Shown here piece after piece: positions 5,490 through 25,753 of a DNA stretch of 64,000 nucleotides. Under the pieces are notes generated by a model. It did no database searches and was not told the origin of the DNA. It saw only the letters and a list, made by a program, of their open reading frames with translations. How positions within the stretch are numbered: the stretch's first letter is position 1; each line of letters begins with the position of its first letter. The stretch lies in contig JAETRR010000008.1 in NCBI GenBank assembly GCA_021770065.1, positions 1 to 64,000 on the forward strand, written 5' to 3'. Source of the stretch: Lachnoclostridium sp. (GTDB lineage Bacteria > Bacillota > Clostridia > Lachnospirales > Lachnospiraceae). The translations under genes were made by a program, and so were the position numbers.

Positions 5490-5570
5490 GCCGCCCTCCT
5501 CTGCACTGGTAATTTCCCTAAGCTTAATTAATTTAACATTGATGCCTGATATATATGATCTGTCAGATAG

Positions 5571-5634
5571 ATTGTATCACATCCATCGTTATTTCTGGGC
5601 GGATGTTCTTCAATTGTCGGTTTTTGTCCTCGAA
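5571..5634 (-). promoter_or_regulatory. Direct-repeat promoter element, copy B
   Basis: On the minus strand, TTCGAGGACAAAAA (5634-5621) and TTGAAGAACATCCG (5613-5600) begin 21 bp apart, and the -10 TACAAT lies at 5576-5571, 37 nt from the start of box 2. The place where a -35 should be reads CCCAGA, so the promoter probably needs an activator bound to the repeats. It drives the gene at 5489 and probably the two genes after it. Confidence 0.7.
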
Positions 5635-5639
5635 TTTTA

Positions 5640-5830
5640 AGAATATTTTATAAAAATAAATGCAGTCAATTTTGACTTTTGACTATAGAATATTGAATTC
5701 TTATTCCGGCTGGCCATTTTGTGAATAACAATCTGCACACTTGAAACCTGTTTACCTTAAAAGCAAATTTATATTCTGAAAAAATCAAAAATTTCTCAGA
5801 ATTTTTTCCCGAGAGTTCTTGATTTTTTAC
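5640..5830. other. AT-rich spacer with inverted repeat
   Basis: The stretch between the leftward element B and the rightward HNH promoter has no gene. A perfect 10-bp inverted repeat (AAAAAATCAA at 5779-5788, TTGATTTTTT at 5819-5828) encloses about 30 nt with further weak pairing (TCTC/GAGA). It could act as a weak bidirectional terminator or insulator between the divergent units. Its right arm overlaps the -35 of the next promoter. Confidence 0.4.
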
Positions 5831-5847
5831 AGGAACTGTGGTATAAC
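5819..5847 (+). promoter_or_regulatory. Predicted sigma-A promoter of HNH nuclease gene
   Basis: TTGATT (5819-5824), a 17-nt spacer and TATAAC (5842-5847) fit a vegetative promoter well. Transcription would start near 5854, which leaves a leader of about 270 nt before the start codon at 6127. Confidence 0.55.
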
Positions 5848-5853
5848 TAAAAC

Positions 5854-6126
5854 AGATAGTTTCCCGAGGATTTTGTGTATTCCGCAGGGTAATCCTCCAA
5901 ATTTAGTCAAATACCAAACAGCAGGCTACGGGGCATCAAACTTGCTGCGCAGCAGCGCTGCGAGGTATTTGACCCTCGCGGCAGTGCCCGATAAAGCGGG
6001 ACAGGCTCTCGCCAAATGGACATGCCGGCACAAGGTGAGCCCGTTCCGGGCGAGAGAGTGGCCTGGGCCATGTCTGCTTGGCTCGTTGCCCACGGGAATA
6101 AATAAACATCAGAAAGGGGTTTTATT
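5854..6126 (+). ncRNA. GC-rich structured leader upstream of HNH gene
   Basis: The leader is visibly richer in G and C than everything around it and is full of exact inverted repeats. These are GAGGATT (5866-5872) with AATCCTC (5891-5897); GTCAAATACC (5906-5915) with GGTATTTGAC (5964-5973); CCCG (5987-5990) with CGGG (5997-6000); CTCTCGCC (6006-6013) with GGCGAGAG (6049-6056); and GACATG (6019-6024) with CATGTC (6069-6074). The last two cannot form together as a simple nested fold, so they are either a pseudoknot or alternative states. It does not match a riboswitch or T-box that I recognise. It may be a cis-regulatory RNA or a dispersed intergenic repeat element that happens to sit here. Confidence 0.45.
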
Positions 6127-7284
6127 ATGAATAAAGTAAATGAAAAAAATCTTCTTGCATTTATTATTGACTACTTTACCAGTATCGGATGTGATCCGGC
6201 AGAAGTTAATAACTATTTTACAGCCCGCCGTTTTAATGACGGCATAGTTCTCAACCTTCCGGCTGTATGCCTTCTTCCGGAAAATAAGCCTGCTTCTTCC
6301 AAAAGCAACCAGACACATATTCACGTCACATCAAAGGCCCGTAACTTTTTCTACGATTCCGCAGCTCTTGACAATGCTGCAGTATCAACACCCTGGAAAA
6401 GTCAGATGCTGAGCATCTCAGAGAGCAATATCAAAGCACTCACCAAAGAAAAAGCTTCTGCATCACTTCTTGTGAAGGATACCTCAATGATGACAAAAAT
6501 TGAGTGCAGGAAAAGCCAGGAAAAACAGGTTCAGCTGAGTAAAATCAGTAAGGATGGAAGACTTTTTTTAGACTTAAGAAGAGGACTGTATGAAAACGAC
6601 ATCATCATTTTTCTGAAATACCGCAATTCAGAGAAATTCTTTGTTTTAGGAATGCCGCGCGCTTTTTTTAAGGATAGCTATGTCTTCGAAACTGCAAGAA
6701 AGAACGGAGCATTAAAAAGCGAAACCTATACTTCGCTTGTCAGCCAGAAAGCTATTCCTGTAAGAGCAGCAATTGAGGCAGTTTTAGAAGAACACTCTTC
6801 AGATGAGGTAATCGAAAGTGAAGATGCTATTTCCGATGCTGTCTACCAAAGCCTGGTGGATTGTGCAAAGCCGGGCAATACAACATATTCACCTGTTGAA
6901 TATGTTGAGCCAGACTCAGAAGGAAGTGCAGGTAAAAGCCGCCGCCCAGCCGCAAATCCGTCTCTTGGCAGGGAAGCAATAGAATACAGCCGCTTCCGAT
7001 GCAGCGTTGATGAGAACCATCATTCTTTTATGAAACCCGATGGAACTCCGTATCTGGAGGTGCACCATTTAATCCCGCTCAGCCAGCAGGCAGACTTTAA
7101 GTATAAGCTTGATACAAAAGCCAACATCATACCTCTATGTCCAAACTGCCACAGAATGTTACATCATGGACGCATCGAAGATATAGAACCAATTCTCAAA
7201 AAACTCTATGAACAGCGCATAGAACTATTGCGGCAGAGCGGTCTGGATATAAGCTTTGAAAAATTGAAAAGCTTTTATTCATAA
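6127..7284 (+). CDS. HNH endonuclease domain protein
   Basis: A 385-residue protein with a C-terminal HNH nuclease domain. The segment LEVHHLIPLSQQ gives the first His pair, NIIPLCPNCHRMLHHG gives the Asn, a zinc-binding Cys pair and the final His, and an upstream RFRCS Cys may add to the zinc site. This layout is common in Mrr-like or modification-dependent restriction endonucleases, where the N-terminus recognises modified DNA. Residues 1-250 are not recognised and have no membrane segment. The start is supported by AGAAAGGGG. It is the only plus-strand gene of the island, has its own promoter and a long structured leader, and ends at a strong hairpin terminator. Nuclease activity is likely from motifs; a role in defence is inferred from family and neighbours. 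Confidence 0.75.
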   Translation: MNKVNEKNLLAFIIDYFTSIGCDPAEVNNYFTARRFNDGIVLNLPAVCLLPENKPASSKSNQTHIHVTSKARNFFYDSAALDNAAVSTPWKSQMLSISESNIKALTKEKASASLLVKDTSMMTKIECRKSQEKQVQLSKISKDGRLFLDLRRGLYENDIIIFLKYRNSEKFFVLGMPRAFFKDSYVFETARKNGALKSETYTSLVSQKAIPVRAAIEAVLEEHSSDEVIESEDAISDAVYQSLVDCAKPGNTTYSPVEYVEPDSEGSAGKSRRPAANPSLGREAIEYSRFRCSVDENHHSFMKPDGTPYLEVHHLIPLSQQADFKYKLDTKANIIPLCPNCHRMLHHGRIEDIEPILKKLYEQRIELLRQSGLDISFEKLKSFYS

Positions 7285-7819: not shown

Positions 7820-10195
7820 CTAATTCAGATGCCTTTTGTACCATTCAATCACAGCATCCCTGTCAGACTCAAAAAACTGTGTGGAAATATAAATGTCTGC
7901 GCCATTGAACTGCAGAGCTTTCGCCCTGTAGCGCTTATGAACGGAATTACCCATATTGTCTGTTCTGTTGTTTGCAACTGCCGGATAATCTGTGCCATGG
8001 AATAGCGCCTTTGTATATTCTTTTGTTTTCAACTGTTCAAGTTCAGATGCCGGAATCTTTGATTTATCGAGCAGATCTTGAATCAGATTATAAAATAATT
8101 TTCCAACCGGCAACAGCCCTTCTGACCAGGTATTTTCATCATTAATATCAAAGGGTGCATCTGAAAGAGAAAAATTAAAATCGTCAATTTCCAGTTTCAT
8201 TTTTAATAGCAGATCTTTAATAAATGAAATAATATTATTTGATGACAGATTGGTTTCATAAAAAATACCGCTGTTATCAATTTGTTTTGCCTTGCGAAGT
8301 TTTCTTTCATCGTTGCTTATATATATTTTATCTGCATTTAAGATTGAATAATCCCCTGCCGCTAAATCATGAAATGTTTCCGAATCTAAGTCATACGCAA
8401 TATTGATGAATTTGGTGAGCAGATCAGCCCAGCTTACCACTTTAACATATTCACCGACAAACGAAAATTCCTCGGGCCTGGTATTGGAAAAGTCAAGGCC
8501 GCTGTCAGCACCAAAGCTCAATTCATTTGTTTCGGTAACGTCAGCGTGCTTTTCAATATATTTAAATTCACAAATCAAAATATCAGAAAGCGCCTTTGCT
8601 CTCTTTAAAATTGAAGCCTCATTCCATCTGTCTGCCGCTAAAACTTCCTTATTTAAAACATTTGCCTTTGAATTATCACGAATGATTTTCTTCTTGTCGT
8701 TAAACGGCTTTGTTCCCAGTTCACTGTTATGCCCTGTAATTGTTAAATTTCCAAGTGTATGCAGATACTTTTTATACACTGTGCCATAATCATCGCCGAC
8801 TTCTTTTTTCCAAACAGCAGAATTTTCTTTCTGCGGCAAGATATGCTCAATAGTAAGATTGCTGACGTCAAGATGTTCTTTGGTGGAATTCTCAATTACA
8901 GAAAGAACAAACTTGCAGATTGGTTTCTTATATAACGGCTTATTAATAAGTGCATACTCAAATTCCTTATCTGTAGGCATACGGTCATTTGCCTTTGAAT
9001 CATTAAGAAAAATTACAAATTTTTCATAGTAATTGTCATAATTCCCGTCAATCACTCTGTCATACATGGAGCTCATAAACTTTGACAGATTCTTGTTGAT
9101 TTCACAGGCGGTTATTCTCACAAGATATGTAAGTAAATAACCCAGCACCTTGCAAAGGGTCTCTTCGTCAATATTTCTGTCCTCATAATCATCAAAAATC
9201 CTAAATAAAAGAGGAATTATTGTTGTCTGCTTAATTGTATAAAAAGCTCTCAGACAGGCTGAAATTTTTTCATTGTAAATATTATTTTCGCCTATATAAG
9301 CTCCATAATATTTTGATGTTCTCTTCAATTTTTTCAGTATATCTTCATGGCCTAAATGATTCTCTTCACAGTGTTCTGTGAATAAACGATATGCATTTTT
9401 ACTATTTACAGACTTGCTTATCTGGGAGTTCAGAAAATTTATAACAAAATCGCCCAGGTTTCGGTAACCTGTATTCTTTTCAATAGCAGACCAGTAATTC
9501 TCATAAAGCTCATCCTGGTTTTCATCGTCCATGAGCAGATAATTTCTGATCAAATCTGCCAGGCTTAATTCCAGCCCGGTTGAATTGATAGACTCAAAAA
9601 TTTTCTGCGGCTCATCGCCTTGAGATTTATCAAGGACAATTTCTACCATTTCAAGTTTTTTAATCCCGTCAAGAATGTCGTTCAGTTCCAGGCCGGATTC
9701 CAGTGTATTCCCAATCAAGTTTTTAAAAGTGATATAGTTTTTATAGATATTGGAGTTTCTGTCCATCTCATCAATTTTATCCTTGATCAGAAGTAACAGC
9801 TGTTCATTATCCGATTTCACTGGCTTTAGTTTCAGCTTGTATTTTTCATCGCAATTCCTGTTAAACATTACTTCTTCTATCTCAGTTTCTATTCTGACCG
9901 ATACCCCTTTTGCAGCATCGTAAAGTGCCTTTAAAAGAATATAGACAGTAGTAAGACGCTGCTGTCCGTCTATAATCAACGCTTCGCTTAAGTTGCTGCC
10001 GCTAAGACCCACGATGTAAACAACAGTCCCTGTAAAATGCTTATGGTCCCGTTCATTTGCTTTCATTATATCCTGGTAAAGTTTTTCACATTGTATATTT
10101 GACCAGTCATAATTGCGTTGATATACCGGAACTTTAAATACTCTTTTGTTTTTTTCGATTAAATCTGAAAATACCCAGACTCTGTAAGGCTGCAT
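7820..10195 (-). CDS. GmrSD-like DUF262/DUF1524 restriction protein
   Basis: A 791-residue single-chain protein. The N-terminal DUF262 (ParB/sulfiredoxin-like, GmrS-type) domain shows VPVYQRNYDW at 22-31 and IDGQQRLTT near 75. The DUF1524 (GmrD-type, HNH-like) nuclease domain shows LTIEHILPQKEN near 450, with a following W and LGNLTITG. Proteins of this family act as modification-dependent (type IV) restriction enzymes or related anti-phage nucleases that use NTP binding in DUF262. Residues about 590-791 form an extra C-terminal part with the phrase YETNLSSNN, which I cannot assign. The gene lies 92 bp downstream of two small genes on the same strand and is probably co-transcribed with them from element C. 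Family assignment is firm; the target is unknown. Confidence 0.8.
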   Translation of the reverse strand: MQPYRVWVFSDLIEKNKRVFKVPVYQRNYDWSNIQCEKLYQDIMKANERDHKHFTGTVVYIVGLSGSNLSEALIIDGQQRLTTVYILLKALYDAAKGVSVRIETEIEEVMFNRNCDEKYKLKLKPVKSDNEQLLLLIKDKIDEMDRNSNIYKNYITFKNLIGNTLESGLELNDILDGIKKLEMVEIVLDKSQGDEPQKIFESINSTGLELSLADLIRNYLLMDDENQDELYENYWSAIEKNTGYRNLGDFVINFLNSQISKSVNSKNAYRLFTEHCEENHLGHEDILKKLKRTSKYYGAYIGENNIYNEKISACLRAFYTIKQTTIIPLLFRIFDDYEDRNIDEETLCKVLGYLLTYLVRITACEINKNLSKFMSSMYDRVIDGNYDNYYEKFVIFLNDSKANDRMPTDKEFEYALINKPLYKKPICKFVLSVIENSTKEHLDVSNLTIEHILPQKENSAVWKKEVGDDYGTVYKKYLHTLGNLTITGHNSELGTKPFNDKKKIIRDNSKANVLNKEVLAADRWNEASILKRAKALSDILICEFKYIEKHADVTETNELSFGADSGLDFSNTRPEEFSFVGEYVKVVSWADLLTKFINIAYDLDSETFHDLAAGDYSILNADKIYISNDERKLRKAKQIDNSGIFYETNLSSNNIISFIKDLLLKMKLEIDDFNFSLSDAPFDINDENTWSEGLLPVGKLFYNLIQDLLDKSKIPASELEQLKTKEYTKALFHGTDYPAVANNRTDNMGNSVHKRYRAKALQFNGADIYISTQFFESDRDAVIEWYKRHLN

Positions 10196-11121: not shown

Positions 11122-11310
11122 TTAAATCATCCCTTTCGCTTACTGTAAACATCTATAAATTTGTATCATGCTTATTTTAAGGATTATACCATATCCTTTT
11201 ATGTTTTTGAGAGTATGTTCTTCAATTGTTTATTTTTGTCCTCGAATTATTTATTTCCAACATATAGTTTTTTAATATACTAAAACACAATCATAAAGAA
11301 CAGACTAAAA
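11122..11310. other. Promoter region between small membrane protein gene and palindromic element
   Basis: This intergenic stretch holds element C (listed separately) and otherwise AT-rich sequence without a gene. Confidence 0.5.
11183..11246 (-). promoter_or_regulatory. Direct-repeat promoter element, copy C
   Basis: On the minus strand, TTCGAGGACAAAAA (11246-11233) and TTGAAGAACATACT (11225-11212) begin 21 bp apart, and a perfect -10 TATAAT lies at 11188-11183, 37 nt from the start of box 2. The -35 position reads CTCAAA, so activation through the repeats is likely. It drives the gene at 11121 and probably the two genes after it. Confidence 0.75.
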
Positions 11311-11488: not shown

Positions 11489-14400
11489 TCAGCATAACGA
11501 ATCAAAAATATTTATTATATCAAACGGTTCATGCGCGCCTATACTGTGAAAAGCATGATCCTTAGGCAGATTTAGCACAAACCCGGCCATTTCCTCTATA
11601 CTTTCTTTCTTAACCAGCATTTCATAGCATCGTGTTTTTTCAACAGCTTCCTGAAGTTCGCTGCTATACTGTGGGTAATTTTTCATCTGGCCTGAAACTT
11701 CAAGCAGACATAAAGCCAGTTTTACAATCTCATCTGATTCATTATCCCTCCTTCTGCGCAGGATCGTCTCGCATGCATTTCTGATTTTCTCCACCTGATT
11801 TACTGTCAGGCTTCCATTCTTTTGATCCGTTCGTTTTTCCTCTCCTTTTTCCTTTAACTCAACACCGCCCAGATACACAGAATTCAATAACGTCCGGAGA
11901 TCGCAAGCGCCATATTCAGAAAGCAGAAACCACTTTTCCAATAAAATCTCTTCACAGCAATAGTATCTTATATTCTTTTTAATTATGGAAAGTACGCTTC
12001 TCCCTGCCGCCTTCCAGTCATCTCCATTGGCAGATTGGGCGATAGCCGAAATATAAATTGCATTTTCCAGACTCATGTGTGCCTCTTTGCCCTCTTCACA
12101 CTTCAGCTGCTCAAAATACTGTTTGACAACCCCCGGTATTTCGGACTTATATTCAATTACCCCACTGTCTGTATCAGCGTATTCTTTCAAGTCCTGCATT
12201 CTTTCTGAAAGGCATAGAAGGCCATTGCCTGTCTCTCTGCACGTTTCGCTGTATTCCTTCAATAAAGCAACCAGCTTATCCCTCCGGGTTTCCGGATTCT
12301 GATCCCCGTCAATTCCACGATAAGATTGCTGCACTGCTTTTATAAGCTGCGGCGACAAATGAATAGAAGTACGAATTTCACTGCATGGCATTAAAACAGC
12401 CGTGTTTTCTCCTTTCTTTACACAATAGGCATCCAGTTTCTCATTTTCCTTATGCTTAAGTTCTGCCTGGAGCAGATAAATATTTCCCCTGGGTCTCTCG
12501 TAACAAAGATACAGGTTCCAGCCGGTTTTAATATTTTCGATTTCAGAGCACACGACTACTTTAATAATCTTATTCCGCTCATCCGGCCTAAGTGCATCAA
12601 ATGGAACCGAAAGGGACATATTGTTTTTCAAATAAGAAGCATATCCGCGGTTATCAATCTCAACAGATATCTGCTCTCTCTTCCTTAATCTTAAAAATGG
12701 TATTTCATTTATCGCTTCTGCTGATACATGTTCCGCTCTGCAGATATTTTCTACCGGCATCCAATAGAATTCGCGGCTTAATACATCCTTACATAAAAAT
12801 CCGTGTTCCCCGGCACAGTCTATCACTTCCTCCACAATAACCTTTCTTTTATCCTCCCTGCCTCCATAGTGTTTGCTCTTATAACAGCCTATCCTAAAAG
12901 AATGATCCACATAATGAACCCATATCTTCTCTCCGGGTCTCAGCCGTTTGGCAATCTCTGCTGCAGCCTCCCGGCCGGGCAGCCTTATCTCTCTGCTGAT
13001 ATCTACGGCAAAGAGGAGGGAACCGCTGCGTAAGCACACAGTAGACCTGCTCACTACACCTATAACCTGACAGCACAAAACCTCATTTTCCTCCGGCAGC
13101 GGCGGATGAGGATAATAAACATATATTTCATTATCCTCAATTTTATCCACAGCCATGGGAATCCTGTTCTGCATAATCCCGAAAAGCCTGTTCCTGCCTT
13201 CTTCATAAGAAAATGCTTTCATAAACCAGTCTGTAGCGTCTGCCTTCTTCTGATCTATCGCTGTTTTAGATATGTGCACGGATAAGTCCGGAAAGCCTGT
13301 TACTTTTATTTCCTTTTTACTATTTAATTCCAGGAAAACCAGATCTTCGGGCTGGGGCAGTGTTTTCTTATATTTCATATGATTATTCGTCTTATCCAGA
13401 ATACAGATATCTGTATTCTGAATACTTGTTTCCGGATACTTTAATTGATAAAATCCGCCTCCGGCTGTCATGCAGCCTTTTTGGCTTGAAATAATCGGCA
13501 GAAATGCTCTTTTTCTGATAAGTGAACGCAGCCCGTAATCAACATCTGTCAGACGAATCTGTATCGGTTTTCCTGGTTCCGGTACAACTGTTGATAATTT
13601 TACAACATCTCCTTCCGATAGATATGTTGTACATAACTTCCCGGCAGTTTTATTTTCATCCACAATGTACAACAGGCTGTCCGGAATTTTTACAATTCTT
13701 CCGGGAGATAATTCTACAAGAATACCTTTTTCTGTTCTGCCCGCTATCGGATAACGGTAATCCAATCCCTGCTGCTCCTCTGGAAGTCCGAATTCCTCAA
13801 TCTCATGCGGAGGATATATATATTTCTCCAGCTCGTCCTCTTTGAACCTCAGCCCCCAGTCAGCATCGAATATTATAGGAAGATCACTATTTTCCCCATA
13901 GGGAATAAGCCCGTGATATCCTTGCACCTTTGTAAACCTGTCATGGTAATGCCATTGTCCACGTTTTATATGCTTTCTGATTTCAGAAATACCTGCATCG
14001 AAAAACGTCATTCGGTTGAAAAAAATCCGTGCCTGGTTTTTACAATACCTGTAAAAAACGATTTTCTCTTTTCCGGTACCCTCCTCTGCTTCCACCTTTA
14101 AAAGGCCGTAATGGACATTCTCTGCCGCATGCAGGGAACCTTCCAGAATCTTACCGTATCTTGGGGGGCGTCTGTTCTTCAGCTCTTCTGCCAGCTCTTG
14201 ATTTCCCAGTTTAATCTGCGGCATTCCGGCTGCTGTAAACTGCTCCGGTTTCATATTGCTTCCAAATGCATTATCCAGCATTAAAAGCTCCACGATCCGC
14301 CCTTCTGTCAAAAAGCAGTCATCACTGCATGATATCGGCTTGACAAATACACTCTCTCCTTTCAGATAAAGCCTCCCTGTTACTCCTTCCTTTATCTCCT

Positions 14401-17400
14401 CGCTAAATTCCGCTCCGCAGAATACTCCGGGTTTAATCTCTATCTGCATCAGATTTTTTGATTTATGCTTCTTACCTGTTACCACATCCTGCTCCCCGTA
14501 TCTGCTAAGCCAGTCGCGGACAATATGCTGCGGACGCCACGGCAGATTTTTTATATCGCCTTGAAATCCGCCGTTTTTGTTATAAATTTTTACAAACATA
14601 TATTTTTGAAAAGCATTTTTATCCTTTTCAAAATAAACCCGCAGCGTACTCTCATTATAGGAAAAAGAACGGCGGTATACGTTTACGGAAACTTCTGAGT
14701 CATCCCCTATCATTGCACAATCTGAACATTCTGTTGAAAAGGTTACATAGTAATCATTTCCGTTCCGGCAGATCTCGCCTCCTTTTAAGCACATAATAAA
14801 GCTGTTAAAAGTCTTTAATTGTGCCATTCCAAATATCAAACGCTTTTTTGATTTTCTCCTGTCCAGCTGAACCAGGATACAGCCTCTCCCACCGTCAGGC
14901 AATGCTTCCTTAACCTTCTTTTCCACATCGCCTTTTAAGCCTGCCGCTTTGACCTTTTCAAAAGACCATGCATGCTCTTCATTACTCAGACGCGGTTTGG
15001 AAACTGTGCTCTCTTCTGCAGTTACCCTGTCTCTTTCTTTATCAAACCGGACTTTTACATATTGAAGTATATCTTTTTCAGCATCCTCTTTTATTCTATG
15101 CTCAATAGAAAAATCATAATTTTCTATTTCTGCGACCAGAAAAGCGTCCCTGCCTTTTCCCTCAATCTTGAAACAGCTGATCTTATCCCCATAAAACCAC
15201 TGGCTTATCGTACCTTTTTTGCTCCCAAGCACTTTAAGCCTGGTTTCCGGAAGCATAAAATGCCTCCCTATTCCCCATTCAAAGTGCAGATAACTGTCCG
15301 CTGTATCTCTGTAAAACAAAGGAAGCTCATATTCATTTTTATTGCGGAACTTTTTATACAGCCATTTCTGGAACTGCTCCCAGCTGTAAGGCTCTGTATG
15401 ATCCACATCAGCCTCAAAACTTCCGTCTTCTGATAATTCTATTTTTGCATATGCCCATTTAGATGAATCTGCAAGCTGAGGCCCCTCCTCTCTTAGCTTA
15501 ATTCGTTTTGTCCACTTACCGGCATCATCCTCTGATACATCATTTCCATTATATGGCAGATATTTTAACGGTTCCCTTATCTCGAAAAATCGATTTCCAT
15601 TTTCTTCAATAACAACCCCCTCTGCATGCAGGCAATTATTATTCATCCAGGATCTGCTGCTTCTCCATTCCATATACTGTTCAAAATAGAGCTTCGCTAA
15701 ACGCCGGCTCTGATTCGGTATATCTGAAAGGCCGGGAACATCTTTAAATTCTTCTTCCGCCTCTTTTAAATGATGTACATCAATTAAATCATCCCATGCA
15801 TCATACATGGTGACCTCTGCTTTTAATGCGGATTCATCCAATTCTTCCTGTGCGGCATTGTTCTTTTTAACGGCATATACTTCTCCTCTTTCAAAATCCT
15901 GTGTTAAGTGAAAGACGTCTTCTCCATTGCCTATGCGATGTACCCCGAGATCCGCACAGCTGCCCTTACTCCGAATCTTCTTTACATCATTTTCGGTGCG
16001 CTTCTTCATCTTCCACAAATATCTTACCCGATACTGCCCTGCCATCAACGGCTTGTCTTTGGGATGGTAAAATACGGGGATAATTGTTTTATTCATATTA
16101 TCATATATAACCGGCATTCCTACATATAGTGTATCTACTTTTAATACTTTTTCCATCCCGGAAGAATTTACCTGTTCCTCATAAACTTTATCATTGTAGA
16201 TATATTTAACCTTTATCAGCCGATTTCCTTCTATAACTTTGGAAATTTCCCAGATAACACCTCTGCATTTATTCTTATCATCCAGCCTTTCATTTATTGC
16301 AGGGCTCCAGCTGACGATACAGGCCGCATATGCTCTCAAAGAATATCTGTACTCTCCGAACATAATACTATCCGCTTCTATCTTTACCGGCATCTGTTCC
16401 CTGGTCAGACCCTGCAGCAGTTTACTATTTTTCCCATTTCCCGCTTTACCTTTCGACATCAGCCGTACCTCAAGAGAATATTCCCTGCCCTCCTCATTTT
16501 TATAAAGTCCATAAAGGTATTCGATGCGCCGTTTGATGTCTGCATCGCTCCCAGGCACTTCAAGCCTTTTCTTTTCAATTGCCTTTAACCTTACTTTACC
16601 ACAACGCTGCGCGCAGGCACCCCAGCCCTCCTCATCAACAACCATATCTTTTTCCGGATTTTTTGTTCCGGCTTCCACCATAACTCCTTTTTTGTTTATC
16701 TTTCGCTTATCCGTCTCCTCTAATCTGACATATTCTGAATCGTAAAACAGACCCATATAATCTAAATTTTCTGTTCCAAATCCTTCTATTTTCAGCTGTG
16801 GGATTTTTCCATGCGTATTCATATCAATTCTGACATGCAGATATAGCCCCCGGGGCCATTCTTTCGTTTCATCTTTATATTTATATATCCGCTGTTGAAG
16901 GCTTTTTAAAGATCCTTCTTCCATAAATTCCGGCAGGATACGATAATGATTTCCTGTACCTGCTGAAAAAAGATATCCTTCCTTCCCCATATTCTGAAAT
17001 ACAACTTTCACAGCTTTACGGCTGCTAAATCCTTTTTCTATAAGAAATTCCAAAAATCCCTTTTCCGGCAGATGATATCTTCCTTTTTCCTTTTTAACAA
17101 ATACTTCCTCTTCCCACTGTGTCTGATTCTCTGACTTTTCCCTGGCTTCTAATACATCCGGCTCCCATTCATACCATTTATCATCCTCTGTATCTTCATC
17201 GCAGATGCTTATACTGCCTTTTTTTATTTTAATGCTGTCTGCTTTAATAATAAGCTTTTCCTTTTTATATCCGCTCCTCTGATACCACTTTTCTATCATT
17301 TGAATAAGTCTGTCGCGGACTTCGGTTCCTTCATCAATAATCCGATCCGATATATTGCCAAGATACCAGTAAATTATTTGTCTGCGGATGTCTCTTGACT

Positions 17401-19765
17401 TTTCCTGCTGACTTATTTTATATGGATCCGTCAGGACTGTATTCCCGGCCTCTGCCTCTTTTTCCTGAGACAGAAGGATATGAAAAAATATGCATTTAAT
17501 TATGTCATGAGTCACTGACAGATTGTCCGGGAGCTCGCTTTTTATAATAACTTCTGCAACGGCATATTGATAAAAAGGAGCTTGTCTGCTTAAATCTGTA
17601 ATCGTTTCGACCACAATCTGTATCATATCCGCTGCATCCTTCTCCGGCAGACCTTCTCCCCTGCAATTCAACTGGCTGACTGCATCCTTCTCCGGCAGAC
17701 CTTCTCCCCTGTAATTCAGCCGGCTGACCGCATCCACTTTGAGAAGTTTTTCCAGAACCTCCGTCGCCAGAAAGCGCGAAGAGCGCGAAAAGCTCTTCGG
17801 AGTATCCATTTTAATTAAAGCGATAATCCAATCGTTAAGTATTTCTCTTTCTATTTCATCTATGGAATCGTTATCTTGTAATATTGCATTAATCCGATGC
17901 ATATTAGCTGCAAAAGCTATACTATATTGTTTATCCTTAATCGAATAGCTGCCTAAAGCAAATTCTTTCTCACCCTTCCATTCGCTTGCTTCGTATTGAA
18001 GCAGCAGCATGATCTGTGTGTTTTTCGGAAGCTTTTTTCCCTCATCATGGTGCAGCCAATCGTCACGATAAATATCTGCTTCTTTAATGAGATCCGGAAA
18101 ATGCTCATATGCCAGATCGATCGGCTTTGTAACATATCCCTCTGGTGAAGATTTATATAGTTCCGAATTTCGAATATAATTCCAAAAATCATTCAATGCA
18201 ATTTTACATAGCTTTCTTGCAAAAGAGCTGTCTCCCCCCTTCATCCAATAATCCCCTTTTTTCACTTCCGGGAACTCGGCAGACGCCTCTTCATACGCTA
18301 AAGAGACGCACACCATAACAGACGGGCCGCAATGCAGATATTTCCTTTGTAAAGAGAGGCCTGCATCCTCGCCGTTCAATATATGCTTTGAATATTTTTC
18401 TACGTTCAGAAACAATTGTTCCGGTACCGTATTGTCAAGATAGCCTTTTCCCACATAACCTATCAGTCTTTTTGCATACGCAAGCAGCGAAATCAGAGCA
18501 TCCGAAAAATAGATTTCCCGGGCGTTTTTATTTCCCCGGAAACAGCCTTCCGCAATGGACTGGGTGACTCCGGAACCAGAATATGCATCTGCAAGATTCA
18601 AAAGCAATTCATATAAAAACTCCGGAAGCTTCTTCTTATTGTTCGAAAAAATTAAAAACAGAAGCGGCGCTGACATTGCGGCTTTCAAAGCCACCGCCTG
18701 GCTCCCCATCCATTTATATTCTGCGAAAGGAGCGCTCCTTGTCTTTGTGTACACCTGATTGCCGCGAAACATCCATGGACATCTTGCATTCTGTGACTTC
18801 TTTATATCTTCCACATCATATGCTGCCCTCTGTTTTTCCCAATACGCGGCAATATAGCCGATAACAGGCAGCAGCCGCTGTTCATTCATTGCCGATTGGA
18901 TTGCTAAATAGACAGCGATATTTTCCCATAAAATTCTCAGCTGCTTCACATACTGGTTTTCCGCTCTGTTCTGCGGCAGCCCCAATGACAGCCAAAACTC
19001 GGTATTCTCCTCACATTCTCCTGCAAATCTGTCAAATAACAGAATTTTAGGATCAAAAGCAGTCTTCAGGATTTCTTCTGCCGACTTCCCATGGAAATAA
19101 AATTTCAGCAGGATTTCTATGGTATCCGGAAATTCATAAAATGTTTTACTGTTCTTCTGATATGCCTTTGCCGCTTCAAATAAATTTGCCGATCCCGAAA
19201 GAAGGCAGACTTCCTGGGCCAGCACCATCGCGTAACGGCCAAAACAGCCTTTTAAAGCCATAATAAGGAACTCGGCACATAACTCCTCCTGGGCTATGCT
19301 ATGTATCATTTCTTTATCATAATTCATTAATGCCGACAGGCACATAATACTATTTATAGATTCCGGCAGTATAATATAGTCTTCTCCCGATAAAGAAACC
19401 GAAACCGGATTCGTGCTGCCCAGTCTGCGTATCTGCATACGTACACTATTCGGCTCATCAATATTCCTTGCTGCCTCATTTGCCACACTTTCAGAAAAAT
19501 TAGCTGCAATCCGGCGAATGATTCCCTTTGCTTCTTTATGAAGTACGTGCTCCTTATTTACAGCTATTTTTGCCAGATAAGGGAGGATATAAATCTGCAT
19601 ATTAAACTCCAGATGATTCTCTGCCTCCTCCAATGAAGACTTTAATAAAGGAATATCTGAAGACGGATTTCTCAACACTCCTGTCAAAAAGAGGAAAGAA
19701 GCCGTATCCTCTGTTGAAATCTGATTCACATACGCTGCATACCAGTCCCTGTACATATTATTCAT
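11489..19765 (-). CDS. Giant protein of unknown family, partner of PD-(D/E)XK nuclease
   Basis: A 2758-residue uninterrupted protein that I do not recognise. No Walker A motif, protease, nuclease or kinase signature, signal peptide or membrane segment was found. Three zones can be seen: residues 1 to about 900 are helical and look like a repeat solenoid; about 900-2480 are rich in short beta strands and charged turns, possibly several OB or SH3-like barrels; about 2480-2758 are helical again. Residues 676-709 are an in-frame tandem duplication (listed separately). Its start overlaps the end of the nuclease gene by 8 bp, so translation is probably coupled and the two work together. Scaffold, sensor or nucleic-acid-binding machine are possible roles. 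It ends next to a long palindrome. That it is a real protein is well supported by the long open frame; function is open. Confidence 0.7.
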   Translation of the reverse strand: MNNMYRDWYAAYVNQISTEDTASFLFLTGVLRNPSSDIPLLKSSLEEAENHLEFNMQIYILPYLAKIAVNKEHVLHKEAKGIIRRIAANFSESVANEAARNIDEPNSVRMQIRRLGSTNPVSVSLSGEDYIILPESINSIMCLSALMNYDKEMIHSIAQEELCAEFLIMALKGCFGRYAMVLAQEVCLLSGSANLFEAAKAYQKNSKTFYEFPDTIEILLKFYFHGKSAEEILKTAFDPKILLFDRFAGECEENTEFWLSLGLPQNRAENQYVKQLRILWENIAVYLAIQSAMNEQRLLPVIGYIAAYWEKQRAAYDVEDIKKSQNARCPWMFRGNQVYTKTRSAPFAEYKWMGSQAVALKAAMSAPLLFLIFSNNKKKLPEFLYELLLNLADAYSGSGVTQSIAEGCFRGNKNAREIYFSDALISLLAYAKRLIGYVGKGYLDNTVPEQLFLNVEKYSKHILNGEDAGLSLQRKYLHCGPSVMVCVSLAYEEASAEFPEVKKGDYWMKGGDSSFARKLCKIALNDFWNYIRNSELYKSSPEGYVTKPIDLAYEHFPDLIKEADIYRDDWLHHDEGKKLPKNTQIMLLLQYEASEWKGEKEFALGSYSIKDKQYSIAFAANMHRINAILQDNDSIDEIEREILNDWIIALIKMDTPKSFSRSSRFLATEVLEKLLKVDAVSRLNYRGEGLPEKDAVSQLNCRGEGLPEKDAADMIQIVVETITDLSRQAPFYQYAVAEVIIKSELPDNLSVTHDIIKCIFFHILLSQEKEAEAGNTVLTDPYKISQQEKSRDIRRQIIYWYLGNISDRIIDEGTEVRDRLIQMIEKWYQRSGYKKEKLIIKADSIKIKKGSISICDEDTEDDKWYEWEPDVLEAREKSENQTQWEEEVFVKKEKGRYHLPEKGFLEFLIEKGFSSRKAVKVVFQNMGKEGYLFSAGTGNHYRILPEFMEEGSLKSLQQRIYKYKDETKEWPRGLYLHVRIDMNTHGKIPQLKIEGFGTENLDYMGLFYDSEYVRLEETDKRKINKKGVMVEAGTKNPEKDMVVDEEGWGACAQRCGKVRLKAIEKKRLEVPGSDADIKRRIEYLYGLYKNEEGREYSLEVRLMSKGKAGNGKNSKLLQGLTREQMPVKIEADSIMFGEYRYSLRAYAACIVSWSPAINERLDDKNKCRGVIWEISKVIEGNRLIKVKYIYNDKVYEEQVNSSGMEKVLKVDTLYVGMPVIYDNMNKTIIPVFYHPKDKPLMAGQYRVRYLWKMKKRTENDVKKIRSKGSCADLGVHRIGNGEDVFHLTQDFERGEVYAVKKNNAAQEELDESALKAEVTMYDAWDDLIDVHHLKEAEEEFKDVPGLSDIPNQSRRLAKLYFEQYMEWRSSRSWMNNNCLHAEGVVIEENGNRFFEIREPLKYLPYNGNDVSEDDAGKWTKRIKLREEGPQLADSSKWAYAKIELSEDGSFEADVDHTEPYSWEQFQKWLYKKFRNKNEYELPLFYRDTADSYLHFEWGIGRHFMLPETRLKVLGSKKGTISQWFYGDKISCFKIEGKGRDAFLVAEIENYDFSIEHRIKEDAEKDILQYVKVRFDKERDRVTAEESTVSKPRLSNEEHAWSFEKVKAAGLKGDVEKKVKEALPDGGRGCILVQLDRRKSKKRLIFGMAQLKTFNSFIMCLKGGEICRNGNDYYVTFSTECSDCAMIGDDSEVSVNVYRRSFSYNESTLRVYFEKDKNAFQKYMFVKIYNKNGGFQGDIKNLPWRPQHIVRDWLSRYGEQDVVTGKKHKSKNLMQIEIKPGVFCGAEFSEEIKEGVTGRLYLKGESVFVKPISCSDDCFLTEGRIVELLMLDNAFGSNMKPEQFTAAGMPQIKLGNQELAEELKNRRPPRYGKILEGSLHAAENVHYGLLKVEAEEGTGKEKIVFYRYCKNQARIFFNRMTFFDAGISEIRKHIKRGQWHYHDRFTKVQGYHGLIPYGENSDLPIIFDADWGLRFKEDELEKYIYPPHEIEEFGLPEEQQGLDYRYPIAGRTEKGILVELSPGRIVKIPDSLLYIVDENKTAGKLCTTYLSEGDVVKLSTVVPEPGKPIQIRLTDVDYGLRSLIRKRAFLPIISSQKGCMTAGGGFYQLKYPETSIQNTDICILDKTNNHMKYKKTLPQPEDLVFLELNSKKEIKVTGFPDLSVHISKTAIDQKKADATDWFMKAFSYEEGRNRLFGIMQNRIPMAVDKIEDNEIYVYYPHPPLPEENEVLCCQVIGVVSRSTVCLRSGSLLFAVDISREIRLPGREAAAEIAKRLRPGEKIWVHYVDHSFRIGCYKSKHYGGREDKRKVIVEEVIDCAGEHGFLCKDVLSREFYWMPVENICRAEHVSAEAINEIPFLRLRKREQISVEIDNRGYASYLKNNMSLSVPFDALRPDERNKIIKVVVCSEIENIKTGWNLYLCYERPRGNIYLLQAELKHKENEKLDAYCVKKGENTAVLMPCSEIRTSIHLSPQLIKAVQQSYRGIDGDQNPETRRDKLVALLKEYSETCRETGNGLLCLSERMQDLKEYADTDSGVIEYKSEIPGVVKQYFEQLKCEEGKEAHMSLENAIYISAIAQSANGDDWKAAGRSVLSIIKKNIRYYCCEEILLEKWFLLSEYGACDLRTLLNSVYLGGVELKEKGEEKRTDQKNGSLTVNQVEKIRNACETILRRRRDNESDEIVKLALCLLEVSGQMKNYPQYSSELQEAVEKTRCYEMLVKKESIEEMAGFVLNLPKDHAFHSIGAHEPFDIINIFDSLC
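17634..17729. repeat. 48-bp in-frame tandem duplication in giant gene
   Basis: Two 48-bp units (17634-17681 and 17682-17729) differ at only a few positions. They encode two 16-residue copies, the core of each being RGEGLPEKDA, at about residues 676-709 of the giant protein. Length is a multiple of three, so the frame is kept. The divergence is small, so the duplication is fairly recent and may be length-variable between strains. Confidence 0.8.
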
Positions 19766-21023
19766 CCTCCCACAAGTATTTTTGTCTTATAAATCTTTCT
19801 CTGTCATAACGTTCAAGTAACCTTCTGTCTGCCTCTACATCTTCCACCCCTTTACAAACCGGAATCCGCTGGCAGAGTAAATGCTTTGCCAATGGCTTCC
19901 CGCAACAGTTTAGTACCTGCTCAAAGTAATACCTGTCAGATAGTAAAATGCGCCAATGCTCAAGTTGATCTCTGCCGATTTTATCAACGCTCTCAACATT
20001 TTGCCTCATAGAAACCCTGTCCGTCTGAATCAGAATAAGCGATTCAACCTCTTTCTGCTTATTAAATTCCTGCCCCCAGTCTATCTTCTCTAAAATTGCT
20101 TTTATACGTTCTGCAATTTCCGTAAACTCCTCACCTTTTGCGCATACATTGATCAACATGGGGTTATCACCCACAGCTCTTCTCCATTTGTGTATAAGCC
20201 GCTCAATATTGTTTACACTATCCGGCTTCATGTAGATCAGCATCCCTTCTTTATTCCCTTCATCCAGGGTTTCAATCGTTCCTTCCAGAAAGCTTTGAAC
20301 TGTATGCTCCCTCCATATATGCACCCGGCTTGAATATTGCCTTAAAAGTTCTTCCAGCGATGCCGCTATTCCTTTTTGTTTTTCACTCACTAAAAAATAG
20401 ATATAATTAAACGGGGTTGCTTCCAGAAGCGAAGGAAAATATACGATATGTCCATTATGGATTACATTTCCGTCCGGTAAATGTACATCTTTGGATTGCC
20501 CCTCCATATTTTCCATAAGCTCCGTTAATGTGTCACCGGATGTAATCAAGTGGCGGTAAGCCCTGGCTACATTTCGATTATTGTCGAGCATAGCGCATAT
20601 ATCATCATAACCCTTTACATAAAATCCCTTAATACTGCCCTTATGCCCGCTCACATATTTATCAATTTTGTCTCTAATACCTGTATCTTTTACCGGCGTC
20701 AGTACAATGTTAGTATAAAAAAGGCAGTTATCCGGAAATTCACCTTTTTCCTGAAACCCTTTTAACTCTTTGTCAATCTGCTCGACAAGCCAGGCATAAT
20801 CCTGTTTGCCCGTAGCAATATTCTTATACTTTACCTGCCCGATTATTTTCCCTGTAAGCTCCACTCCCGCGCTGTCTTTTACCGGTCCTTCAACCACAAA
20901 ATCTCTCTGCCCGTCAGGCCCTGCTCCAAACGGCGTACTTTTAAGTCCAAACATTCCATGAATTAAGCTTCTTACCATCTCTTCAAACTGAACTGGTTCC
21001 ATCTTGCTAAAATCATACTTCAT
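19758..21023 (-). CDS. PD-(D/E)XK (Mrr-like) nuclease, partner of giant protein
   Basis: A 421-residue protein whose first 170 residues carry a restriction-endonuclease-like fold. FEEMV at 13-17 gives the helix Glu, GPDGQRDF gives D37 or D41, and GQVKYK gives Q63-x-K65, the usual Mrr-type E...D...QxK pattern. The rest (170-421) is an unrecognised alpha/beta part without membrane segments, perhaps a sensing or partner-binding region. The start follows GAGGAGAAGG. Its 3' end overlaps the giant gene by 8 bp. N-terminal nucleases of this type are common effectors in anti-phage systems, which supports a defence role together with the island context; specificity is unknown. Confidence 0.75.
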   Translation of the reverse strand: MKYDFSKMEPVQFEEMVRSLIHGMFGLKSTPFGAGPDGQRDFVVEGPVKDSAGVELTGKIIGQVKYKNIATGKQDYAWLVEQIDKELKGFQEKGEFPDNCLFYTNIVLTPVKDTGIRDKIDKYVSGHKGSIKGFYVKGYDDICAMLDNNRNVARAYRHLITSGDTLTELMENMEGQSKDVHLPDGNVIHNGHIVYFPSLLEATPFNYIYFLVSEKQKGIAASLEELLRQYSSRVHIWREHTVQSFLEGTIETLDEGNKEGMLIYMKPDSVNNIERLIHKWRRAVGDNPMLINVCAKGEEFTEIAERIKAILEKIDWGQEFNKQKEVESLILIQTDRVSMRQNVESVDKIGRDQLEHWRILLSDRYYFEQVLNCCGKPLAKHLLCQRIPVCKGVEDVEADRRLLERYDRERFIRQKYLWEDE

Positions 21024-21216: not shown

Positions 21217-21561
21217 TTATAAATTTTCAAGGTTCCTAAATATCTCTGCCTGCTTTTTGTTTTTAGAAGAAGATTTGCCTGTACTGCCCATAGGCTGTTC
21301 CTCCATCATCTGTTCGACATCGGAATAAGTCTTGCCTAGATCCGGATCGGCCTTCATTCTCTTTACTTCTTGAATTGCTTCAACGGTTTCAGCATTCGGT
21401 ACATCGCCGCTGATTTCAAAGGGTATTCTATACTCCCGAACTGCCTTACGCGCAAAAATATTGAAAGCCGTTGTCATTGTCATTCCCATATCAGAACAGA
21501 ACGCCTCAAACTGCCGCTTCAAATCCGCGTCCATACGAATATTGATATTTGTGTTTGCCAT
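21217..21561 (-). CDS. RelB/DinJ family antitoxin, no adjacent toxin
   Basis: A 114-residue protein whose first 50 residues match the ribbon-helix-helix part of RelB/DinJ antitoxins (NINIRMDADLKRQFEAFC, then GMTMTTAFNIFARKAV and RIPFEI). Such proteins bind operator DNA and neutralise YafQ/RelE-type mRNA interferases. It is longer than typical DinJ (about 85-90 residues), with a charged tail ending in KNKKQAEIFRNLENL. The start has AAGGAG. A terminator follows and no RelE/YafQ-like ORF is next to it, so it is an orphan: a solitary regulator, an anti-addiction remnant, or one whose toxin was lost. Confidence 0.75.
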   Translation of the reverse strand: MANTNINIRMDADLKRQFEAFCSDMGMTMTTAFNIFARKAVREYRIPFEISGDVPNAETVEAIQEVKRMKADPDLGKTYSDVEQMMEEQPMGSTGKSSSKNKKQAEIFRNLENL

Positions 21562-22235: not shown

Positions 22236-22370
22236 TTAACAGAATCGGGTGATGTCAAACAAAAATGAATTTTTAGATGCTTTTTAGATTGTCAAAAGTA
22301 TATTGAAAAGATTTCTGCATATGTTACTAGCTTTCTTTGAAGCATTCAGGATAATAATTGATGCGAAATT

Positions 22371-23522: not shown

Positions 23523-24713
23523 CTACTCCTCTACCTTTAATCTGTAGGTATCCAATCTTTCCGGATCAAAGCACTCACTGCTCCACATAAATGTCACCAA
23601 ATCGCATTCACCTTCGTTAATAATGTTATGTGTATAACCTGTTGGAATATCCACTAATTCCAGTGCTTCACCGCTGACATGGTATTCTATAACCGGATAC
23701 TGCTCTTTTGTGACCGGATCGATCCCCACCTTCCTTAAGCGTATCAAGGCCTTTCCGCTTACTACCAGGAACTTTTCATTCTTTGTATGATGCCAGTGCT
23801 CTCCTTTTACAGTTCCGGGTTTTGATATATTAACAGAGAACTGGCCTTTGTCAATGGTGCGCAAAATTTCCGTAAAGGATCCCCTTTCATCCACATGCAT
23901 ATTCAAGGGTGTGCAAAATTTATCCTCTGGCAGATAACTGATATAGGTTGCATACAATTTCTTTGAAAGGCTTCCTTCCGTCATATCGGCCACAATTCCT
24001 TTTTCTCTGCACTCTTGAAAAGAATAAATCATATCCACAAGCTCTCCTAATGCAGCATGATATTCCACCGGTACATAACAGTAACCCTTTTCATCCATCG
24101 CAGCATTTCCATAGAGCGCCCGAATTAACTCCTCCACTACATCGTCAATATATACCAACGTCATTTCTACATTTCTGTCATGCACATGAACCGGTTCCCC
24201 ACAGGCAATATTGTGGCAGAACGTTGCTATTGCACTATTATAATTCGGTCTGCACCATTTCCCGAATACATTAGGAAAGCGATAAATATAGACAGGAGCC
24301 CCCGTCTCTTTTCCATAAGAAAGCAACAGATCTTCCCCTGCTTTTTTGCTTTTCCCATATTCGCTGCCTGCATATCTCCCCTCAAGACCGGCTTGTATAG
24401 AAGACGAAAGCATAACCGGACAAGTATTATGATACTTTTTTAATGTATCAAGCAGCACTGAAGTAAATCCAAAATTCCCTTCCATATATTCTGACTGATC
24501 GTGAGGTCTGTTCACTCCTGCAAGGTGAAAAACAAAGTCAGCCGATTTACAGTATATCTCCAGCAGTTTTTTATCTGAATCCTGATCATACTCGAAAATC
24601 CGAAAATCAATATCTGTCTGAACTTGCTTATTCTTTATATTACGAATATTCTGAAGCGTTAATACTAAATTCTTCCCAATAAATCCCTTTGCTCCAGTGA
24701 CAAGTATATTCAC
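23523..24713 (-). CDS. capF: Capsule reductase CapF/WbjC/FnlB (SDR plus cupin)
   Basis: A bifunctional protein of about 396 residues. The N-terminal SDR domain begins with NILVTGAKGFIGKN and has YGKSKKAGEDL for catalysis; the C-terminal cupin domain has GEHWHHTKNEKFLVV, the metal-binding His/Glu set known from CapF. It epimerises and reduces the 4-keto intermediate to UDP-2-acetamido-2,6-dideoxy-L-talose on the way to UDP-L-FucNAc. I prefer the GTG start at 24713 because GGGAGG lies 7 nt before it and it overlaps the preceding stop as GTGA; an ATG five codons earlier has no site. Confidence 0.85.
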   Translation of the reverse strand: MNILVTGAKGFIGKNLVLTLQNIRNIKNKQVQTDIDFRIFEYDQDSDKKLLEIYCKSADFVFHLAGVNRPHDQSEYMEGNFGFTSVLLDTLKKYHNTCPVMLSSSIQAGLEGRYAGSEYGKSKKAGEDLLLSYGKETGAPVYIYRFPNVFGKWCRPNYNSAIATFCHNIACGEPVHVHDRNVEMTLVYIDDVVEELIRALYGNAAMDEKGYCYVPVEYHAALGELVDMIYSFQECREKGIVADMTEGSLSKKLYATYISYLPEDKFCTPLNMHVDERGSFTEILRTIDKGQFSVNISKPGTVKGEHWHHTKNEKFLVVSGKALIRLRKVGIDPVTKEQYPVIEYHVSGEALELVDIPTGYTHNIINEGECDLVTFMWSSECFDPERLDTYRLKVEE

Positions 24714-25753
24714 GATCTTTCCTCCCATTCCGCCAATTCATTGCGGATATAATCTAATGACAGCAGCTTTTGTTTTACCTGCTCCACCGTTAACAGCTCT
24801 GTATTGTTAGAATTAAACTCTGTCAGCAAATTGCGTCCGGTATCGCCATTCTTAAAATATTTATCATAGTTTAAGTCTCTCTTGTCCGCCGGAACACGGT
24901 AGAAATCCCCCAGGTCAACTGCATGTGCACATTCTTCGTTTGTCAACAGCGTCTCATACATTTTTTCTCCGTGGCGGATACCGATTACTTTCATCTCACA
25001 TTCGGAATGAAACAGTTCTTTTACTGCCTGCGCAAGAATTCCTATTGTACATGCCGGTGCTTTTTGAACCATTATGTCTCCCGATTCTGCATTCTGGAAT
25101 GCAAAAACCACTAATTCTACAGCTTCCTCTAAGCTCATAATAAATCTGGTCATTGATGGTTCTGTTATAGTCAGTGGCTTCCCATCCTTCAGCTGATTGA
25201 TAAACAACGGAATTACGGAACCGCGGGAACACATTACATTTCCATAGCGTGTACAGCAAATAGCCGTTTTCTCCGGTGCTACGGTACGTGCTTTTGCCAC
25301 AATTACCTTTTCCATCATGGCCTTGCTGGTTCCCATAGCATTCACCGGATAGGCCGCTTTATCTGTTGATAAGCAGATTACTTTTTTTACTCCCATTTCG
25401 ATAGCTGCAGACAAAACATTTTCAGTACCCAGTACATTTGTCTTCACCGCCTCTACCGGGAAAAATTCGCACGACGGAACCTGTTTTAATGCTGCCGCAT
25501 GAAAAATATAATCCACTTCATGCATAGCATTACGCACACTTTGAATGTCGCGCACATCACCGATATAAAACTTCAGCTTATCACTATATTCCGGATATTC
25601 TTTCTGATAAAAATGCCGCATGTCATCCTGTTTCAATTCGTCACGGGAAAATATGCGGATCTCTTGAATATCAGTCTTTAAGAAACGATTTAGAACGGCA
25701 TTTCCAAAGGAGCCTGTCCCTCCTGTAATTAAAAGCGTCTTCCCTCGAAACAT
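24710..25753 (-). CDS. capE: UDP-GlcNAc 4,6-dehydratase/5-epimerase CapE/WbjB/FnlA
   Basis: An SDR enzyme of about 347 residues with the Rossmann motif TGGTGSFG at its N-terminus and the catalytic stretch CLSTDKAAYPVNAMGTSKAM. This has the Met-for-Tyr replacement in the YxxxK position that is typical of CapE/FlaA1-type dehydratases. It makes the 4-keto-6-deoxy intermediate that CapF and CapG turn into UDP-L-FucNAc. The ATG at 25753 (MFRGKTLLITGG) is preferred over 25783 because AGAGG precedes it and it fits homologues. Overlaps capF by 4 nt. Confidence 0.85.
   Translation of the reverse strand: MFRGKTLLITGGTGSFGNAVLNRFLKTDIQEIRIFSRDELKQDDMRHFYQKEYPEYSDKLKFYIGDVRDIQSVRNAMHEVDYIFHAAALKQVPSCEFFPVEAVKTNVLGTENVLSAAIEMGVKKVICLSTDKAAYPVNAMGTSKAMMEKVIVAKARTVAPEKTAICCTRYGNVMCSRGSVIPLFINQLKDGKPLTITEPSMTRFIMSLEEAVELVVFAFQNAESGDIMVQKAPACTIGILAQAVKELFHSECEMKVIGIRHGEKMYETLLTNEECAHAVDLGDFYRVPADKRDLNYDKYFKNGDTGRNLLTEFNSNNTELLTVEQVKQKLLSLDYIRNELAEWEERS

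Follow-up and report, generated by a model that had tools for sequence, protein, structure and literature searches.

Inspection of a 64,000-nt stretch of a Lachnoclostridium sp. contig (hereafter, the window) showed a gene coding for an Mrr-type nuclease protein to lie directly upstream of, and in the same direction as, a gene coding for a giant protein of no recognised family; both are located on the minus strand. Loci with a gene for this giant were found four times, corresponding to three distinct lineages. As judged from the predicted proteins, the giant is the constant component while the enzyme encoded next to it is exchanged, being an REase in the window, a TIR protein in another Lachnospiraceae contig (named L005) and, by adjacency alone, a CHAT protein in Streptomyces. 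The observations behind this are the gene order, the conservation of the giant, the swap of the enzyme on a shared adaptor in two of the loci, the coupling of the genes and their patchy occurrence. On balance, they suggest a modular two-gene immune (conflict) system made of an exchangeable effector and a giant with no recognisable NTPase.

The two open reading frames lie where a first-pass annotation of the window had placed them; their features are summarized in Table 1. That annotation also described an 8-bp overlap between the two frames, which is present if the first ATG of the giant ORF is used and absent if the giant starts at position 19756. The GGGAGG sequence abuts the first ATG, and the next in-frame ATG, that at 19756, is 9 nt away from it; the spacing between GGGAGG and the start of the giant is also 9 nt in L005. 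In addition, the conserved N-terminus of the giant, MYRxWY, begins at this second ATG. Since the spacing and the conserved N-terminus both point there, translation of the giant probably starts at Met4, 1 nt past the stop codon of the nuclease gene, and the 8-bp overlap in the window is thus likely to derive from ORF calling. In L005, the overlap between the TIR gene and the giant gene is a genuine one of 8 bp. The window giant can be aligned with a protein of 2771 aa encoded in another genome, that of L005, which indicates that the predicted gene is a real one. The gene pair and the window have equal G+C contents (0.415 and 0.413, respectively); base composition thus gives no sign of a foreign origin for the pair.

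Table 1. Features of the effector and giant genes in the window
Feature	Position	Strand	Evidence or remark
Effector gene, 421 aa: Mrr-type nuclease plus adaptor	19758..21023	-	ORF; similarity to the L005 TIR protein
Predicted Mrr-type nuclease module, residues 1-181 (D37, D41, Q63, K65)	20481..21023	-	tblastn to 14 plasmid records; six-copy alignment
Adaptor module, residues 182-421, common to the L005 TIR protein	19761..20480	-	BLASTP and alignment
Shine-Dalgarno-like GGGAGG, within the 3' end of the effector gene	19766..19771	-	9 nt before the ATG at 19756; identical spacing in L005
Giant gene, ORF of 2758 aa	11489..19765	-	Probable coding start at 19756 (2755 aa)
Giant core, residues 1459-2383, with conservation extending to Streptomyces	12617..15391	-	blastp E 3e-26; three-row alignment
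WHYHD motif, residues 1938-1942, identical in three giants	13940..13954	-	Alignment

The statement of the first-pass annotation that the giant has no recognisable ATPase, protease or membrane part was borne out. The giant matched nothing in Pfam, PADLOC, NCBIfam or PHROGs, nor in the PDB when searched by sequence or with a two-row profile. Pattern scans detected no Walker A motif in three giants (those of the window, L005 and Streptomyces) and no HExxH motif in the window giant, for which the maximum 19-residue hydropathy was 1.57. No Pfam match, to NACHT, AAA or any other family, was obtained for giants P0001, P0006 and P0010, and the effector protein of the window (P0002) likewise gave no NACHT/AAA-type Pfam match. 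Predicted models of residues 1640-2348 of the giant and of P0002 were poor, with mean pLDDT values of 31.4 and 41.8, respectively. With no match in the libraries searched, the giant and the adaptor appear to be two undescribed protein families, the interaction and function of which are directly testable in laboratory strains. Internal repeats in the giant are not claimed: an hhalign self-comparison gave probabilities of at most 6.7%, and an HMM search recovered its own seven seeds plus one match with an E-value of 0.88, while 90 shuffled controls yielded 12 matches with E-values of up to 1. The letters DEAD, found twice in a motif scan of the Streptomyces giant, and LLAAC, found once, were taken as chance occurrences.

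The four nuclease residues named in the first-pass annotation were all present in the effector protein. In an alignment of six copies of the module, that of the window and five encoded by plasmids, D37, Q63 and K65 were invariant and position 41 was occupied by D or E. The Pfam Mrr_cat model matched the module with an E-value of 0.11 and 13 bits, under the cutoff of 21. A tblastn search with P0002 retrieved 14 plasmid records, mostly through the first ~180 residues, and four of these records were annotated as AAA or NACHT. The five plasmid proteins inspected were 713-1333 aa long and carried the nuclease module at the N-terminus. Four of them matched Pfam NACHT (E 1.8e-6 to 1.6e-3, with only one above the Pfam cutoff), and the fifth matched NPHP3_N only (E 1.2e-4, below the cutoff). 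Neither window gene had a close match in PADLOC; the nuclease module did match the N-terminal part of the PADLOC Aga models (E 1.2e-6 and 5.8e-5), which represent short-Argonaute-associated REase/TIR proteins, the match ending near residue 170. Its occurrence in NACHT/AAA-like plasmid proteins and its relation to the Aga models suggest that the nuclease module is an immune effector of general use, joined here to the adaptor. The adaptor was recognised by its similarity to the L005 TIR protein (BLASTP E 5e-25, 29% identity over P0002 residues 145-421), while a search of the PDB with an adaptor profile gave chance-level matches only (E 0.12 and 0.27).

L005, which belongs to an uncultured member of the Lachnospiraceae, was found in a scan of genome contigs guided by two short motifs derived from two sequences; 41 stretches matched, one of which was this relative. 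Its giant shares 33% identity with that of the window over residues 1347-2754 and 28% (E 5e-122) over a second aligned block, with values of 5 to 50% per 60 columns along the length of the pair. The gene preceding the L005 giant codes for a TIR domain (Pfam TIR_2, E 7.6e-11, above the cutoff) followed by the same C-terminal module of ~240 aa as that present in the window nuclease protein. L005 also contains a third gene (positions 13945-15537), coding for a protein of 530 aa (P0011), that overlaps the end of the giant gene by 4 bp. No counterpart of it was seen directly downstream of the window giant. P0011 had no match in family or sequence searches, Pfam and PHROGs included; it may resemble MYG1-like exonucleases, a resemblance that no search supports.

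A search of 72,556 plasmid records with the giant gave two matches, both of them Streptomyces linear plasmids coding for a homologue of 3142 aa. The giants of the two plasmids are 100% identical in their first part and 99.9% in the last, and the two were thus counted as one lineage. A profile of the window and L005 giants aligned with the Streptomyces giant over profile positions 868-2437 with a probability of 99.65%; the L005 and Streptomyces giants matched each other over the core (E 2e-31) and at the N-terminus (E 4e-5). The gene located before the Streptomyces giant, separated from it by a 141-bp gap, codes for a CHAT protein (P0007; E 9.8e-15, above the Pfam cutoff). A second CHAT-like protein (P0008; E 5.4e-5, just under the cutoff) is encoded in divergent orientation upstream of the CHAT-giant pair (L002, positions 278-2428); such a combination of two CHAT proteins would be compatible with a protease cascade. 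The adaptor was not detectable in either CHAT protein, so the link between CHAT and the giant in Streptomyces is one of adjacency.

The expectation, raised in the first-pass annotation, that homologues of the giant always come with the nuclease did not hold, as the nuclease was found in one of the four loci; yet in all four (three lineages) the gene immediately preceding that of the giant codes for an immune-type enzyme. The broader proposal of an effector coupled to a giant of no known family, which gains support because the relatives swap the effector for TIR (L005) or CHAT (Streptomyces), can be considered partly supported. The exchange also bears on whether the pair might act in a restriction-like manner, equivalent to a type IV restriction enzyme divided between two genes, in which the giant would recognise DNA that is foreign or modified and the nuclease would cut it. 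An Mrr-type nuclease with its D/QxK residues intact, a GmrSD gene nearby and the fact that such a role does not require an NTPase all agree with this. Nevertheless, the adaptor of L005 bears a TIR domain and Streptomyces has a CHAT protein in place of the nuclease, neither of which cuts DNA; the existence of these versions disfavours a pure restriction role, which we regard as unlikely. A programmed-death, stress or plasmid-addiction unit responding to a non-phage trigger, with the giant serving as an antidote-like scaffold that restrains the effector, would agree with the additional role of TIR, CHAT and REase enzymes in cell-death circuits and with the location of the Streptomyces copies on two plasmids. 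However, a restraint of ~2750 aa far exceeds in size the known antitoxins, and the effector gene comes before that of the giant; this explanation is improbable too.

The occurrence of the giant is patchy and rare. It was found in its own genome only among 397 genomes sampled from the family, 398 from the phylum, 391 from the class, 263 from the order and 16 from the genus, these samples overlapping one another and lying outside the Streptomyces genomes. Similarly, among 99 genomes around L005 it was present in that of L005 only. The giant had no match in 50,697 phage records, and no viral contig was found for it in four scans, nor for the nuclease or the adaptor in two. With so few lineages, and with Streptomyces CHAT proteins that show no detectable similarity to the adaptor, the giant and the effector could be coincidental neighbours that function separately. 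This is very improbable, given that the two adaptor-bearing loci (window and L005), the giants of which share only about one-third identity, both have the adaptor gene next to that of the giant, with the same gene order and tight coupling. Further, apart from that in the window's own genome, the adaptor was detected in the 397 family genomes through a single marginal match (G156, E 8.8e-4, where ~0.35 such matches are expected by chance), and in plasmids the L005 adaptor was not found apart from a giant.

For the modular immune system favoured here, we infer docking, sensing, activation and an anti-phage outcome. The first gene would provide an N-terminal enzyme that is open to exchange and that, in both the window and L005, is fused to the conserved adaptor of ~240 aa, and the second a giant of about 2750-3140 aa that would serve as sensor or scaffold and has no recognisable NTPase. 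The adaptor would dock the effector on the giant, where it would be held inactive. An encounter of the giant with an invader-derived trigger would cause it to rearrange and to release or cluster the effector, which would then cut DNA (window) or have TIR or CHAT protease activity (relatives). Phage multiplication would be halted as a result, probably at the expense of the cell.

An NTPase switch underlies many of the bacterial immune receptors whose effectors are exchangeable. The bNACHT/Avs proteins (NACHT/STAND receptors) resemble the system described here in that a large conserved partner is combined with effectors that can be exchanged, and the same Mrr-type module is N-terminal in NACHT/AAA-like plasmid proteins; in contrast, the window giant and effector protein have no NACHT/AAA match or Walker A motif, and effector and candidate sensor are separate proteins. 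Short-Argonaute-associated REase/TIR proteins (PADLOC Aga) share the nuclease module, which matches the N-terminal part of their models, but the window giant had no Argonaute-type (MID-PIWI) match in Pfam or PADLOC. The principle of a large conserved protein served by alternative effectors also applies to Lamassu and to other systems that have a single core and more than one effector. The Lamassu core is an SMC-like ATPase, whereas the giant has neither a Walker A motif nor a PADLOC match. We tentatively propose, as a possibility that falls short of the favoured reading, that the giant may represent a novel class among the immune receptors of bacteria, namely a sensor-scaffold free of an NTPase switch, common to Lachnospiraceae and Streptomyces, that would accept effectors of the nuclease, TIR and CHAT types, two or more of these via a dedicated adaptor domain. 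If so, the task that NLR-like STAND proteins perform by means of NTP hydrolysis would be performed by the giant in its absence, and a conserved protein with no recognisable NTPase that takes the same effectors would imply another way of coupling sensing to effector release.

Sensors with interchangeable effectors are already known, an example being the VMAP/iSTAND MoxR-vWA ternary conflict systems (PMC7159879). These also join a constant component to variable effectors, TIR and caspase-like domains included, and differ in their MoxR and vWA components. No Pfam match to MoxR, vWA or VMAP/iSTAND was found among the 14 window proteins and six L005 proteins scanned. The giant-effector pair itself was not found in the literature searched, in which subscription papers were sparse and bioRxiv was not included.

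The pair had been described in the first-pass annotation as part of a defence island, which would be a modest one. In the Pfam scan of the window neighbourhood (14 proteins), a GmrSD-type protein (7820-10195) and an HNH nuclease (6127-7284) were found on one side of the pair; located on the other are a RelB gene at 21217-21561 and, at 23523-24728, a gene of polysaccharide type. Few defence genes were recognised at the other giant loci. A flank in the genus-mate G1262 is 90% identical to the window up to position 22369, where it diverges; the G1262 contig ends 1.4 kb beyond. An ORF of 847 aa at window positions 2056-4599 has a calcineurin-like phosphoesterase match at its start and a methyltransferase match at its end; a stretch with 78% identity is present on another contig of G1262. 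Just downstream of the giant gene, positions 11182-11248 are 78% identical over 67 bases to positions 5570-5636 (E 8.5e-7). Finally, positions 5905-6102 correspond to a dispersed repeat, for which many places on other contigs of the same genome, as well as several genus-mates, gave matches of about 30-200 bases at an identity of roughly 70-97%; the 103-aa ORF at 5819-6130 overlaps this repeat and may not be a gene.
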